From NCBI RefSeq assembly GCF_000428045.1, contig NZ_ATZE01000014.1, positions 77,751 to 141,750 of the forward strand: a stretch of DNA of 64,000 nucleotides. Reading direction: 5' to 3'. The stretch comes from Sedimenticola selenatireducens DSM 17993. GTDB taxonomy: Bacteria; Pseudomonadota; Gammaproteobacteria; Chromatiales; Chromatiaceae. Below, piece after piece: positions 24,675-59,556 of this stretch. Position 1 is the first letter of the stretch; each line of letters begins with the position of its first letter. The position numbers and the translations under genes are program-made. The notes under the pieces were generated by a model. It made no database searches. It saw only the letters and a list, made by a program, of their open reading frames with translations, and was not told the origin of the DNA.

Positions 24675-24700
24675 GCCGGAACCCAGTATTGGGTTCCGGC
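24675..24700 (+). terminator. Strong hairpin between rpsA and ihfB
   Basis: GCCGGAACCCA-GTAT-TGGGTTCCGGC is a perfect 11-base-pair stem with a four-base loop. There is no T tract after it, so it may be a partial terminator, a 3'-end stabiliser of the rpsA message or a processing site that lowers ihfB expression relative to rpsA. Confidence 0.6.
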
Positions 24701-24723
24701 CTAATCAAGGGGATTCAAAAAGA

Positions 24724-25032
24724 ATGACAAAATCTGAATTGATTGACGTCATCGCAAAAGAACAAAGCCACCTTGCATACCGTGACGTGGAGTTGGCTGT
24801 CAAATGCATGCTGGAGCAGATGAGTCAAACCCTGGCCTCCGGGGAGCGTATCGAGATTCGGGGTTTTGGTAGCTTCTCTCTTCATTTTCGTCCACCAAGA
24901 CAGGGGCGTAATCCGAAGACTGGAGCGTCAGTAGCGCTGGCAGGAAAATATGTTCCGCATTTTAAACCGGGTAAGGAGTTGCGTGAGCGGGTAAATGAAA
25001 GCGCCGCCAGCGGATCCAAAATAACCGGTTAA
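24724..25032 (+). CDS. ihfB: Integration host factor subunit beta
   Basis: A 102-residue DNA-bending protein of the HU/IHF family. The start [12 protein letters not shown] and the beta-arm signature [13 protein letters not shown] followed by [11 protein letters not shown] identify the beta subunit. With IhfA it bends DNA sharply and assists sigma-54 promoters, recombination and replication. Its location after rpsA is the standard one. In many relatives lapA and lapB follow; here the next 890 bases carry no such genes. Confidence 0.96.
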
Positions 25033-25291
25033 TCACGAAATACACCCTGATGCTATTAATCTGGAAATAGCGCTCCGGATTAAATTTTCTTGGTATATGT
25101 TCGAGCTTCGAGTAACTATTCAAGAATACTTTACCCGCGGCGTGGCCGGTGGTATTTACGGCTCGTCTCGAGTCAGAGTGCCGGGGTTTGTTTCTGCTTA
25201 TAGTGTATTGGAGCTTGGATAAAGCCAGGTGAAATAAGGGGGCGCTGTTTTTCCCGCCTGTTTGTCCTGATAGGGCCAAGCGCCATCCGAC
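25033..25291. other. Gene-free stretch after ihfB
   Basis: I see no supported gene here. Short open frames exist on both strands but none has a convincing start site or composition. The expected lapA/lapB genes are absent. The region leads into the open reverse-strand frame described next. Confidence 0.5.
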
Positions 25292-25465
25292 CTATTCAAT
25301 AAGACCATTCAATTTAGCCTGGTAAATCTTTGCAAGCTTGATCAGGTTAAGGCTTAGCCATTTCGGCATGGGCACCTTCGACACTGCGTTGTATTCAGTA
25401 TCCCTGATCTGGCTGTAAATAGTCCCGGCACGTCGTATATGAAACGAGGTGCGATTTTTTCTTAG
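25292..25465 (-). other. Open reverse-strand frame that could continue the small SOS-linked ORF by frameshift
   Basis: On the minus strand, a frame without stops runs to a TAG at 25292-25294, one register away from the 56-codon ORF that ends at 25462. Its sequence is protein-like: a basic start (LRKNRTSFHIRRAG), then YSQIRDTEYNAVSKVPMPKW and an amphipathic end (LIKLAKIYQAKLNGLIE). It has no ATG until the late MPKW. If joined to the upstream ORF by a single frameshift before its TAA, it would give a ~114-residue protein with a central membrane helix and a basic cytoplasmic tail. It could equally be non-coding. Confidence 0.3.
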
Positions 25466-25632
25466 ACGGATACAGCCATGGCCAATAGATAGACAGAGGT
25501 AACCACGGCCACCGATACCAGATGCAATCGGGAATCTGAGCGTGAAGGCTTATTGTTCGGAGTGCACGCCATTAGACTGGAAATCTGATTGCGAACCTGA
25601 TCCTGCATGATATAACCATTTTTATATTTCAT
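25462..25632 (-). CDS. Putative SOS-regulated small single-pass membrane protein (56 aa)
   Basis: An ATG-started ORF of 56 codons: a polar N-terminal part (MKYKNGYIMQDQVRNQ...) followed by a hydrophobic C-terminal stretch of about 21 residues (LHLVSVAVVTSVYLLAMAVS, 36-55) ending at TAA. AGGT lies 8 bases before the ATG. Its interest comes from the promoter region 84-129 bases upstream, which is a near copy of the lexA promoter with its operators. By analogy with SOS-induced small membrane proteins (TisB-type toxins, SidA/DidA or YneA division inhibitors) it may be a damage-response effector. I recognise no homologue, and translation is not proven. An internal start at residue 9 is possible. 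Confidence 0.42.
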   Translation of the reverse strand: MKYKNGYIMQDQVRNQISSLMACTPNNKPSRSDSRLHLVSVAVVTSVYLLAMAVSV

Positions 25633-25715
25633 GGTGCGTACCTAACGTAGTGGGTCATCTTTAAGGTTAATTGCGACAATCTTTCCCTGGTATGCCGCAC
25701 GCCAGGACGGTCCTT

Positions 25716-25761
25716 GTTCTCTAATGGTTCTATGATAGTACAAAGAGAACGAAAATAGAAC
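25716..25761 (-). promoter_or_regulatory. Double LexA-type operator and promoter (lexA-like architecture)
   Basis: Two direct-repeat operators are present: GTTC-N7-GTTC at 25716-25730 and GAAC-N7-GAAC at 25747-25761. Read on the minus strand, the 36 bases from 25750 down to 25715 match the lexA promoter (30596 to 30561) at 28 positions without gaps, including a TATCAT hexamer at the place of lexA's TATAAT. The GTTC-N7-GTTC pattern is the SOS box known from alphaproteobacteria. The promoter points to the 56-residue ORF; a role for the divergent 65-residue gene is also possible. Confidence 0.65.
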
Positions 25762-25856
25762 ATTTGTTTTGCAGAAAGAGATATGGAATTAAAAGCCTTG
25801 ATTTTGAACGCATAAACCAGATTTCATCCTGATGCGTGATCGAATGAACAGATCTC

Positions 25857-25886
25857 TGGCAGGGACAGAATAATCTCCTATATAAT
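25857..25886 (+). promoter_or_regulatory. Possible sigma-70 promoter of the 65-residue gene
   Basis: A perfect -10 hexamer TATAAT (25881-25886) is preceded after 18 bases by a weak -35 TGGCAG (25857-25862). The start would be near 25893, about 26 bases before the ATG of the following small gene. Confidence 0.4.
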
Positions 25887-25918
25887 CGGTGCAGAATTTT
25901 ATGTGAAGTAGTGATGCT

Positions 25919-26116
25919 ATGCAGAACCTTGATATTGATGCCTGTATAGAGGCGATCTGTAACAAAGGATGTCAGGCAGTGAGGCGTGAAATCCAGCTGC
26001 TAGAGCAGGGTCAGACCCTGCCGGAGCTGTCTCATCTCAGTCTGAAAGCACGCCAGTCAGTGCTGGAGGAGCTCAAAACAATCATGTCTGTTTATGGAAA
26101 TAGCTGCAGAGTTTAG
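25919..26116 (+). CDS. Small conserved-looking hypothetical protein (65 aa)
   Basis: A 65-residue, soluble, helical protein beginning MQNLDIDACIEAICNKGC, with two early cysteines (C9 and C14), a further C18 and a late C63. I do not recognise it. It looks real because it has a TATAAT promoter just upstream, an ATG start, and a good rho-independent terminator 66 bases after its stop, making a neat monocistronic unit. It is divergent from the SOS-like promoter, whose operators lie about 160 bases upstream, so a link to DNA damage is possible but unproven. Confidence 0.6.
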   Translation: MQNLDIDACIEAICNKGCQAVRREIQLLEQGQTLPELSHLSLKARQSVLEELKTIMSVYGNSCRV

Positions 26117-26181
26117 CGGTGATAGGCTATATATCCAGAAAATCTGAATAATTAATTCACCAAAATATTGATCACCACATT

Positions 26182-26213
26182 GAGCCGAGCCTTCTAGCCC
26201 GGCTCTGTTTTTT
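26182..26213 (+). terminator. Rho-independent terminator before tex
   Basis: GAGCCG (26182-26187) pairs with CGGCTC (26200-26205) with an inner GC/GC pair, followed by TGTTTTTT. It ends the transcript of the 65-residue gene and isolates tex. Confidence 0.8.
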
Positions 26214-26257
26214 GTGCATGGGTTAGAACCAGGCACATAACCGGAATCAGAGCTGTC

Positions 26258-28579
26258 ATGCAGAAAATTATTAGCCAGATTGCTGAAGAGTTGAGTGTAG
26301 CGATACCCCAGGTAATGGCGGCGGTAGGGCTACTGGACGAGGGTGCAACCGTGCCATTCATCTCCCGCTACAGAAAGGAGAAAACCGGTGGCCTGGATGA
26401 TGCCCAACTGCGGAATCTGGAAGAACGCCTCGGATATCTGCGTGAGCTTGAGGATCGACGTGAGACCGTGCTTAACAGTATCCGGGAACAGGGCAAACTG
26501 ACGGAGGCACTTGAGCGGGATATTGTTACCGCAGAGACCAAAACCCGACTGGAAGATCTCTATCTGCCATACCGGCCCAAGAGAAGGACCAAGGCGCAGA
26601 TCGCACGGGAGGCGGGTATTGAGCCGCTGGCGGAAAAGCTGCTGTCTGATCCGACGCTCGATCCGCTAGTCGAGGCGTCCGGCTATCTGAATAAGGAGGC
26701 CGGCTTTACCGATGACAAACTGGTGCTTGACGGGGCCCGGCAGATTCTCATGGAACGCTTTGCGGAGAATGCCGAACTGCTTGGTGCGTTACGTGACTAT
26801 CTGTGGGACCAGGGTGTTCTCAAGTCACAGCTGGTTAAGGGAAAGGAACAAGACGCGGCCAAGTTCAAGGATTACTTTGAATATGCGGAACCGATTCGCC
26901 AGGTCCCATCCCATCGGGCGTTGGCGCTATTTCGCGGACGAAATGAGGGCTTACTGAATCTCGAACTGGTGGTTGATGAGGAGATATCAGGCACAACACC
27001 TTGTGAAATCACCATAGCCCGCAAGGTTGGTGTTGAAGATCAGGGGCGTGCCGCAGATGCCTGGTTGAAGGAGTGTGTGCGCTGGGCATGGCGTGTGAAA
27101 ATATTCAGCCATCTCGATCTGGAACTAAAAATGCGCCTGCGGGAGGCTGCTGAAGAAGAAGCTATCAAGGTATTTGGGCATAATCTAAATGACCTGCTGT
27201 TGGCGGCTCCGGCGGGTAATTTGCCGATTCTAGGGCTTGACCCTGGTCTGCGAACGGGCGTCAAGGTGGCAGTAGTGGATGCTACTGGCAAAGTGCTTGA
27301 TACGGATACTATCTATCCGCATGCCCCCAAAAACCGCTGGGACGCCTCTATCGCTTCACTGGCTACATTGGCAAAGTGCCATGGCGTACGCCTTGTGGCT
27401 ATCGGTAATGGTACGGCCTCACGGGAAACCGACCGGCTGGTCGCCGATATGATCAAGCGTCATCCCGAACTGAAGTTGCAGAAGGTTATGGTGAGCGAAG
27501 CGGGCGCCTCGGTCTATTCCGCTTCCGAGCTGGCGTCGGCTGAATTGCCTGACCTTGACGTGACCCTGCGTGGGGCCGTATCAATCGCCAGACGGCTCCA
27601 GGACCCACTGGCGGAACTGGTAAAGATCGAACCCAAGGCAATTGGTGTCGGCCAATACCAGCATGACGTGAATCAGACCCGCCTGGCCCGGCAACTGGAT
27701 AATGTGGTGGAAGATTGCGTGAACTCGGTCGGTGTCGATATCAATACTGCCTCTCCTGCGCTGCTCGGACAGGTTTCCGGATTGAACAAAACCCTGGCGG
27801 AGAACATTGTCAGATATCGTGATGAACACGGTGCATTCAAGGACCGCCGCCTGCTGTTGAAAGTGCCCAGACTAGGCGACAAGAGCTTCGAGCAGGCTGC
27901 CGGTTTTCTCCGGATCAATGCCGGCGACAACCCGCTGGATGCGTCTGCCGTTCATCCGGAAGCCTATCCGGTTGTTGAGCGGATATTGCTCAAGGCGGGG
28001 CGTCGCATCCAGGATGTTATTGGTGACAAGGCATTTCTTGGCACACTCAAGCCTGAGCAGTTTACAGATGAAAAATTTGGCGTACCGACCGTCACGGATA
28101 TTATCTCTGAGTTGGAAAAGCCGGGACGGGATCCGCGTGGCGAGTTCAAAACAGCCAGTTTTCAGGAAGGCATTGAGAAAGTGGCCGATCTGAAACCTGA
28201 TATGGTGCTGGAGGGTGTTGTCACTAATGTGACCAATTTCGGGGCGTTTATCGATATTGGCGTTCATCAGGACGGATTGGTACACATCTCTGCCATGTCT
28301 GAAAAGTTTATCAAGGATCCACGAGAGGTGGTGAAGGCCGGTGATCTGGTAAAAGTGAAGGTAATGGAGGTGGATGTCGTTAGAAAACGTATTGGCCTGA
28401 GCATGCGATTGTCTGACCAGAGCAACACCGACAACAGAAACAAAAGTCCTAATAAATCTGCTGGCAAAGCGTCGTCCAAGTCCGAGCAGAGGCCGACCAG
28501 GCAGCAAACTCGGAATGCACCTCCCTCTGGAGGAGCGATGGCTGCCGCGCTTGGTGATGCGTTAAAAAAACGGCGTTAG
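26258..28579 (+). CDS. tex: RNA-binding transcription accessory protein Tex
   Basis: A 773-residue Tex protein. The N-terminal helical region has [15 protein letters not shown]. It has a YqgF-like RNase-H fold ([16 protein letters not shown]), the highly conserved helix-hairpin-helix area with [11 protein letters not shown] and [10 protein letters not shown], and a C-terminal S1 domain (about 645-720, [16 protein letters not shown]). A basic, disordered Lys/Ser/Arg tail follows. Tex binds RNA and acts at transcription and stress tolerance; its exact biochemical role is unsettled. It has its own leader, between a terminator and the ArnD-like gene. Confidence 0.96.
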
Positions 28580-29940: not shown

Positions 29941-30549
29941 TTAGTGATACCGCCTCATTTGACCAACCAGGATGCCTTGTATCTGCACTTGGTCCGGTGC
30001 ATAGGTCATTGGTGACAGGCTTGCATTGGCAGGGTGCAGGATTACGCGATCCGGTTTTTGCTCTATACGTTTGAGAGTCGCATCGCTTCCATCAACTAGG
30101 GCAACGACAATTTCTCCGTTACGCGCATGATCACGCTGTTCAATGATGATCTGATCACCATCCAGAATACCCTCTTCAATCATGGAGTCACCCTTGACCT
30201 GAAGGACATAACAGGGCCGATTGGTATGTAAATAGTCCGGCACCTCGATCGTTTCTTGCTGTTCAACCGCTTCAATGGGGTGGCCTGCAGCAATATAGCC
30301 GAGGAAGGGCAGTCCCTGGGCTTCATCCTGACTCTGGCCGCTAAGTCGTATACCCCGCCGGCGATTATTCATGGGTTCAATCAATCCGGCATCAATCAGT
30401 GCCTGGATCTGTTTATGCAACGAACCTTTAGAACTGAGTCCAAGCGCATTGCATAGTTCGTCCAGCGTTGGGGGATGGGGAAACTTATCCAGATTGGCTT
30501 GCAGGTAGTCATATATTTCCTGCTGTCTGCGTGTCAGATGATCAATCAT
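29941..30549 (-). CDS. lexA: LexA repressor with alpha-type recognition helix
   Basis: A 202-residue SOS repressor. The N-terminal winged helix (1-70) starts MIDHLTRRQQEIYDYLQ. The cleavage site Ala-Gly is in YIAAGHPIEA, the catalytic serine in VKGDSMIEEG and the catalytic lysine in the ATLKR segment. The recognition helix region SSKGSLHKQIQALIDAG resembles alphaproteobacterial LexA (SKSGIHRLITAL type) more than E. coli LexA (SPNAAEEHLKAL). This fits the GTTC-N7-GTTC operators found in its own promoter. It is transcribed alone toward the SET gene. Confidence 0.93.
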   Translation of the reverse strand: MIDHLTRRQQEIYDYLQANLDKFPHPPTLDELCNALGLSSKGSLHKQIQALIDAGLIEPMNNRRRGIRLSGQSQDEAQGLPFLGYIAAGHPIEAVEQQETIEVPDYLHTNRPCYVLQVKGDSMIEEGILDGDQIIIEQRDHARNGEIVVALVDGSDATLKRIEQKPDRVILHPANASLSPMTYAPDQVQIQGILVGQMRRYH

Positions 30550-30561
30550 ACAAGGCTCCCT

Positions 30562-30607
30562 GTTCTATTGTTGTTCTATTATAGCCAAAAGAGAACAAAT
30601 GGGAAAC
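30562..30607 (-). promoter_or_regulatory. lexA promoter with autoregulatory GTTC-N7-GTTC operators
   Basis: Downstream operator: GTTC-N7-GTTC at 30562-30576, part of an 11-base direct repeat of GTTCTATT. Upstream operator: GAAC-N7-AAAC at 30593-30607, one mismatch from ideal. On the minus strand the -10 TATAAT (30584-30579) lies between the two, so bound LexA would cover the promoter. The lexA ATG starts 13 bases after the downstream operator. E. coli-type CTGT-N8-ACAG boxes are not present here. Confidence 0.75.
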
Positions 30608-30775: not shown

Positions 30776-31234
30776 CTAATGATGGGACGCCACTTTTAAT
30801 CGACCGGCGGGGCGTTTTTTATCAGTGGTAATCCCGGCATGGAGGTAATCTATCTGTATGCCTGATCTCCGGCGATCCTGTTTGCGTTTTTCACTGATGT
30901 CACGGGAGATCTGTTCGAGCGAAGTTCGTCTTCTGTCCCGTTTCGTTGACCGCCGGAAGAATTTCCTGACTTCAACTTTTTTGGTTTTGAATATCTCACC
31001 GTTAAGTCTGTTTATCAGGCTAAGGGCCGCAGAAGGGGGGTCAACATGGACGATACCGTGATACTCAACCTGTTTGGTTTTGGGATTGTCAATGCGGCAG
31101 ATATCACAATGACCAAGCGTACCTATAGGTGAAAATTGCAGCAGATACCATTTTGGTCTTAATGCTTCGGAAACGAACTGCATGAGGTCAAGCCGGGTAG
31201 TTGAGTTCGGCAACCTTCGAATGAAAATCTCCAT
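30776..31234 (-). CDS. RRM-type RNA-binding protein
   Basis: A 152-residue protein. Residues 1-90 form an RNA recognition motif-like domain: MEIFIRRLPNSTTRLDLMQFV as the first strand and helix, and GIVHVDPPSAALSLINRLNG toward the end. The rest is a very basic tail with many Arg and Lys (FRRSTKRDRRRTS and KRKQDRRRSG). It may act as an RNA chaperone or cold-adaptation factor, but no target is indicated. It is a single gene on the minus strand, 227 bases upstream of lexA, with its own upstream region. Confidence 0.75.
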   Translation of the reverse strand: MEIFIRRLPNSTTRLDLMQFVSEALRPKWYLLQFSPIGTLGHCDICRIDNPKTKQVEYHGIVHVDPPSAALSLINRLNGEIFKTKKVEVRKFFRRSTKRDRRRTSLEQISRDISEKRKQDRRRSGIQIDYLHAGITTDKKRPAGRLKVASHH

Positions 31235-59130: not shown

Positions 59131-59556
59131 TCATCAGTGTGGCAGCCGGGCAAGCGGGACGGTATCGCTAACCTCAGTATGTCTCGTTCTTCGCCTCAGT
59201 TCAGCTTTCAGATCCGGAGCGGTTATTGGTTTCTGCCGGACATTTCCTTGGGGCTATCTACCGGCGGGCAGGTTCTGACCTTCGCTGACGCCTGCTTGAT
59301 TTCAGACCATGCCACACTGGTTGTCGCTGTCTTCTGTTCAGTTGCGATCCGGGGTGGGAGTCTATCCGGTTTCTCTGCTCTATACACGAATCGCCCAAAC
59401 TTGGGTCTGCCGCTTGGCTACGGTGGAACTGTTCGAGAACGTATGACGCCGGGTATTATCCAGCTACAACAGGCTCTTACACGGATAAAGTGAAGCGGGA
59501 CATGGGTCAAATAATGCTATTGTGTAGGCAATAACAAAACCGACAGGGGAATTAAG
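59131..59556. other. Intergenic region without a supported gene
   Basis: A 118-codon open frame exists on the plus strand (59137-59493), but its composition is not protein-like, it has no ribosome site and I recognise nothing in it. No hairpin or repeat of note was seen. Confidence 0.45.

Follow-up and report, generated by a model that had tools for sequence, protein, structure and literature searches.

A small ORF in Sedimenticola selenatireducens DSM 17993 lies behind a promoter that closely resembles that of lexA, and this raises the question of what part a product of 56 amino acids might play in the SOS response. The ORF, recognized from the ORF list and from the conservation of its homologues, occupies positions 25462–25632 (stop codon included) on the minus strand of the window, which is the whole stretch of 64,000 nucleotides that was analysed. 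Its start codon is an ATG at 25632, and the product has one C-terminal hydrophobic stretch. A weak Shine–Dalgarno-like TTAGG, read by eye, precedes the ATG (25641–25645, minus strand), and AGGTG or GGAG was seen by eye at the equivalent place in relatives.

A motif search identifies two LexA-type boxes upstream of the gene on the minus strand; read in the direction of the gene, box 1 is GTTC-N7-GTTC (25747–25761) and box 2 is GAAC-N7-GAAC (25716–25730). The two are in opposite orientation and face each other, with their starts 31 bp apart (minus strand 25761–25716). Between them is a probable −10 element, TATCAT, read by eye at 25732–25737 (minus strand), and in many relatives this position is occupied by TGCTAGNAT, which to the eye has the look of an extended −10 element. 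A generic promoter and terminator scan found nothing on the gene's strand and did not pick up the −10 element. Box 2 probably lies at or shortly past the start of transcription.

The lexA gene itself is located at 29941–30549 (minus strand; TIGR00498, above the cut-off) and presumably encodes the regulator of both promoters. Its promoter contains one full LexA-type box found by the motif search (30562–30576, minus strand) and a half-site GTTC upstream at 30596–30593; the small ORF has two full operators. An earlier note on this DNA had claimed that the promoter of the small ORF matches that of lexA at 28 of 36 ungapped positions, and comparison of 25750–25715 with 30596–30561 (both minus strand) gives exactly this figure; the second full GTTC-N7-GTTC site that it placed upstream is indeed present at 25747–25761. 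When both strands of the window are searched with the 36-mer of the lexA promoter, 25750–25715 is the best non-self match. The window contains five GTTC-N7-GTTC sites against 1.73 ± 1.28 expected, a number reached in 1 of 100 shuffles, and two of the five are at the small ORF and one in the lexA promoter. Further matches occur at 59426–59440 and 30913–30927; about 1.7 would be expected in the window by chance.

Across the genome the box pattern occurs at 15 sites, compared with four for the reversed control, and among the matches listed promoters were accepted only at recA, lexA and the small ORF, the other sites being judged from ORF lists. The recA gene, recognized by eye, has the box GTTCTATTGATGTTC upstream. 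Site G000:C3:47491 was considered as a fourth SOS target and rejected, as it sits within a large methylase-like ORF. For Alphaproteobacteria, GTTC-N7-GTTC is the published LexA motif (PMC8565304). Neither the small gene nor GTTC-N7-GTTC for these Gammaproteobacteria was found in open-access titles and the opening parts of abstracts.

Homologues of the small ORF were found in 60 genomes. A search of 38 relatives gave matches in ten, its own genome included, and these include eight of the nine genomes of its own genus, the ninth being 65 % complete; the matching named loci belong to Sedimenticola hydrogenitrophicus and to a MAG labelled S. thiotaurini. Searches with a ten-row profile matched 38 of 194 family genomes (16 of 61 genera), those with a 29-row profile 52 of 210 order genomes (17 of 61 genera), and those with a 46-row profile eight genomes of the 369 in the class sample, including six that do not belong to the family. 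In the order to which one of these extra-family carriers belongs the small ORF is present in all five genomes, and in a phylum sample it was found in one genome of 249, the window's own. Four diverged homologues (G448, G522, G533 and G558) escaped the 29-row profile and were reached through their facing box pairs. The small ORF is under purifying selection: among seven members of the genus (G006 and G004 left out) pS is 0.56–0.93 and pN 0.07–0.28, with for example a pS of 0.69 against a pN of 0.070. From the profile matches and these values it follows that the ORF is conserved as a protein, of 46–66 residues in the family, within a limited set of Gammaproteobacteria in the samples searched. 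The view in the earlier note that the first ORF downstream encodes a small membrane protein with a single span is supported. A phage or plasmid origin was considered and rejected, since the phage and plasmid collections gave no match.

The boxes travel with the gene. We tabulated 58 homologues, which are all matches of the 29-row and 46-row profiles, one per genome, and were collected by protein profiles that are blind to promoters. Within 250 bases upstream, 41 of these have at least two exact boxes, 15 have one and two have one-mismatch boxes only, so that the ORF is conserved behind at least one exact GTTC-N7-GTTC box in 56 of 58 related genomes, the pattern for which the earlier note had wanted relatives to be searched. 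All 41 homologues with two boxes have them in the same facing order, forward and then reverse, and most of the 15 with one exact box have a one-mismatch partner. Two extra homologues from the order in which all five genomes carry the gene have, respectively, an exact box and a one-mismatch pair only. Over the 58 loci there are 98 exact boxes in the 14,500 upstream bases versus three in the other 137,753, although the genomes are related and the counts are hence not independent. The possibility that the boxes stand at the small ORF by chance was rejected on the window shuffles, the homologue counts and this upstream concentration. The putative operator of the lineage's LexA overlaps the promoter and is conserved across species, as expected for a member of the LexA regulon, and the same motif is found at lexA and recA. 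Judged from these sequences, the small ORF is almost certainly an SOS gene in its lineage, and its boxes are putative LexA operators.

When the facing pair was searched for by itself, it was found in 65 of 194 family genomes (four of 194 for the reversed control, which in the class sample gave 0 of 369). Among the matches listed, 25 distinct pairs in the family that were not known to be at a small ORF were inspected, and by eye these lie at lexA (17), at a helicase (3), at a contig end (1) and at the small ORF (4). At the three helicase pairs the gene encodes a DEAD helicase and lexA does not start within 150 bp, and the four newly linked pairs (G448, G522, G533 and G558) precede ORFs of 46–61 amino acids with Y-x-M-R followed by a membrane helix. 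Twenty facing pairs away from the small ORF in the class sample were assigned by eye to lexA (17), a Y-family polymerase (1), a helicase (1) and an unclear locus (1). The family can be found from the protein side and from the operator side, and a facing box pair in the style of lexA can reveal further hidden SOS genes. We note that facing GTTC-N7-GTTC pairs mark the lexA promoter in many of the sampled Gammaproteobacteria (L019–L037, L112–L160). At several loci a DEAD-box helicase gene is divergent from lexA and the pair is common to both; L037, a locus that is cut, has a partial TIGR03817 match below the cut-off.

The window protein consists of an N-terminal motif, Y7-I-M-Q-D-Q-V, a basic linker, a membrane helix with a hydrophobic core at residues 38–54, and a tail of two residues. 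In alignment A5 (MAFFT; 46 rows, 38 of them non-redundant, G426 and G413 left out) the family motif is Y-x-M-R-D-Q, with Y7 and M9 present in 38 of 38 rows, R10 in 28, D11 in 31 and Q12 in 28, and a permissive search for Y/F/V-x-M gives a match in 62 of 62 proteins. The C-terminal hydrophobic core is uncharged in 56 of 58 homologues and is preceded by two to nine K/R residues and followed by none, so that the positive-inside rule puts the N-terminus in the cytoplasm; the same 56 of 58 are short proteins with one membrane span, as are the inhibitors of the SidA, YneA or SosA kind. Within the core a tyrosine is nearly invariant (37 of 38 rows of A5), and an alanine follows three residues later in 31 of 38. 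Conservation is biased to one face of the helix, a bias equalled in 22 of 10,000 shuffles for A5 (118 with the tyrosine neutralized) and 15 of 10,000 for alignment A6 (116 with the tyrosine neutralized). Mean information per position in A5 is 2.96 bits for the N-terminal motif, 1.52 for the linker and 2.55 for the membrane helix. The two parts are occasionally found apart: G413 and G330 keep the N-terminal motif and are without a clean membrane helix (the C-terminus of G330 is absent from all alignments), and the diverged G533 and G558 keep the helix and have lost most of the N-terminal part. An AlphaFold model from a three-row input has helices at 8–20 and 31–55, at low confidence (mean pLDDT 63). 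Taking promoter and protein together, the product is very probably an SOS-regulated tail-anchored protein.

The ORF, which had been put forward as undescribed, is apparently unnamed. Neither Pfam and NCBIfam, searched with 44 members of A6, nor PHROGs, searched with ten members, gave a convincing match, and the weak Pfam, NCBIfam and PHROG matches that did appear involve single members or two of ten only. A profile search of the PDB returned one weak match (E 0.025), to a designed protein judging by its name. Profile scans of small ORF members found no LysM domain, and ten members scanned with PF03846 (SulA) gave no match. To judge from the profile libraries, the small ORF may be unrelated to SidA, DidA, YneA, SosA, TisB and DinQ.

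In the window the small ORF lies between ihfB, which is convergent with it, and a divergent ORF of 65 amino acids (orf65; 25919–26116, plus strand), beyond which is tex. Across the 58 loci, many of them short, the neighbours include orf65 in 38, ihfB in 19, tex in 17 and a polysaccharide deacetylase gene in 16, and none of those tested is constant. In G268, from another order, orf65 is on the opposite side, and in G426 lexA is close upstream instead and orf65 was not found beside the gene; since the neighbours vary in this way, the boxes track the small ORF and not any one neighbour. The orf65 product has no Pfam or NCBIfam match and is 32–72 % identical to the window copy outside its own genome; its gene is upstream of tex in the window and beside the polysaccharide deacetylase gene in 16 loci.

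SulA is a soluble, SOS-induced protein that halts division. In many bacteria without SulA the checkpoint effectors are, to our knowledge, not known, their genes being tiny, unannotated and mutually unlike. The earlier note saw no sulA-like gene here and raised the idea that the small ORF could be the lineage's own checkpoint or toxin. The first point extends to the genus, since PF03846 matched in none of nine Sedimenticola genomes (in a control set of 14 it matched only in E. coli). The second, if taken to mean the lineage's own substitute for SulA, does not hold for the wider group. PF03846 matched in 42 of 194 family genomes, in 40 of them over the cut-off, and the small ORF is present in 48 of the same 194 (the 52 minus G570, G571, G573 and G574, which are outside the sample). 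By hand count the ORF is found in 23 of the 42 genomes with SulA versus 25 of the 152 without, a positive association (Fisher P 2.7e-6, uncorrected for kinship), and of 61 genera 17 have the ORF, 14 SulA and six both, again by hand count. Because SulA co-occurs with the ORF in so many relatives, simple replacement of SulA is unlikely and was rejected for the family as a whole; it may hold within Sedimenticola. The small ORF also differs from SulA in kind, having a membrane helix and no match to PF03846.

Several explanations of the locus have to be considered. It is extremely improbable that the ORF is a chance reading frame within a leader that belongs to some other SOS element, or that the boxes serve the divergent orf65. 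Box 1 does lie about 160–190 bp from the start of orf65 in seven of eight genomes of the genus (450 bp in the eighth), but the low pN/pS of the small ORF argues against both ideas, as does retention of the boxes where orf65 was not found alongside, for example near lexA in G426; conservation of the coding sequence practically refutes this explanation. A membrane-depolarizing toxin of the TisB or DinQ kind, which would send damaged cells into dormancy, is unlikely. Such a toxin would agree with a small product that has one span and is made from an SOS promoter which, like that of dinQ, has two operators (PMC3567139), and the tight double repression suggests a product that is harmful in healthy cells. 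TisB and DinQ are likewise SOS-induced small membrane peptides, in E. coli, but according to the sources consulted they are under type I control and need an inactive leader and an antisense RNA, and nothing of this kind was seen in the leader lengths, the folding of the window leader or Rfam. Box 2 is just 13–30 nt from the ATG in 24 of the 41 double-box members, the leader in the window, which is longer, shows no more stable folding than its shuffles (z −0.63), and Rfam gave no match over 24700–26400, although an undescribed antisense RNA may exist. The helix is moreover uncharged in 56 of 58 homologues, and a pore needs no cytosolic motif, yet here conservation of the motif is no lower than that of the helix. 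We know of no conserved cytosolic motif in TisB or DinQ. The comparison with TisB drawn in the earlier note is thus a weak one, and a toxin of this type is the less likely because the leader is often very short and the helix is without charge.

The product could also be an SOS regulator or adaptor that is tethered to the membrane and has some other target (a protease, envelope stress, turnover of RecA or LexA, or anchoring of the nucleoid), a reading that is possible, if somewhat doubtful. The most invariant residues, Y-x-M and then R-D-Q, are in the cytosolic N-terminus, the gene co-occurs with SulA, and the neighbourhood of ihfB, the 65-amino-acid ORF and tex has no link to division; against this, no tested neighbour accompanies the small ORF everywhere and there is no positive pointer to any particular target. 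Arrest of cell division may quite possibly be the function, by analogy with known systems, and we lean towards it because small damage-induced membrane proteins elsewhere act on FtsW or FtsN (PMC4211646, PMC13396833) and because a protein contact would suit the conserved face of the helix. A point against this function is that many relatives carry SulA as well as the ORF, so that division arrest would be duplicated there. Two inhibitors coexist in Caulobacter crescentus, as SulA and the small ORF do in these relatives. There SidA, which is under SOS control and targets FtsW, and DidA resemble the small ORF in being small membrane proteins made after damage, and they stop division with the Z ring intact (PMC4211646); SidA has 29 amino acids in contrast to the 56 of the window ORF. 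The damage-induced membrane division inhibitors YneA, SosA and ChiZ of Gram-positive bacteria are likewise similar in their role to what is proposed here, and YneA reaches FtsW through a single membrane helix (PMC13396833), although that helix is N-terminal and accompanied by an extracellular LysM domain, whereas the helix of the small ORF product is C-terminal and has no LysM domain beside it.

In the mechanism that we favour, LexA would sit on the facing boxes on either side of the −10 element, and DNA damage would free the promoter through RecA-stimulated cleavage of LexA. A short and apparently monocistronic mRNA, with ihfB convergent downstream, would then be translated, and the product would enter the membrane so that the N-terminus stays in the cytoplasm and no more than a few residues protrude on the outside. 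The membrane helix, with its Tyr/Ala face, and the cytosolic Y-x-M-R-D-Q motif could together bind a partner in the membrane, for which the complex that synthesizes the septal wall is the likeliest candidate, and division would be delayed until LexA reaccumulates. We tentatively propose that the family represents a new class of checkpoint effector in sulfur-oxidizing Gammaproteobacteria, C-tail-anchored and marked by Y-x-M-R-D-Q, a tyrosine-marked helix face and lexA-like operators, which would act beside SulA in some genera and replace it in Sedimenticola, and whose facing-pair operator architecture would otherwise belong mostly to lexA itself. As the family has members in cultured Sedimenticola and its short, near-invariant motif is open to mutation, the way in which these lineages pause after damage is directly testable.

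Two minor observations concern copies of these promoters. In S. hydrogenitrophicus the same 15 bases are found at the lexA box and at box 2 of the small gene (L011, 411–425 and 5907–5921; L013, 100–114 and 5907–5921; lexA itself was seen in L011), which hints at an operator that has been copied or is co-evolving. The draft genome G435 has two near-identical small-gene promoters, on contigs C27 and C637 (L113 and L158); because the second runs into the end of its contig, it may be either a true additional copy or a duplication made by the assembly.
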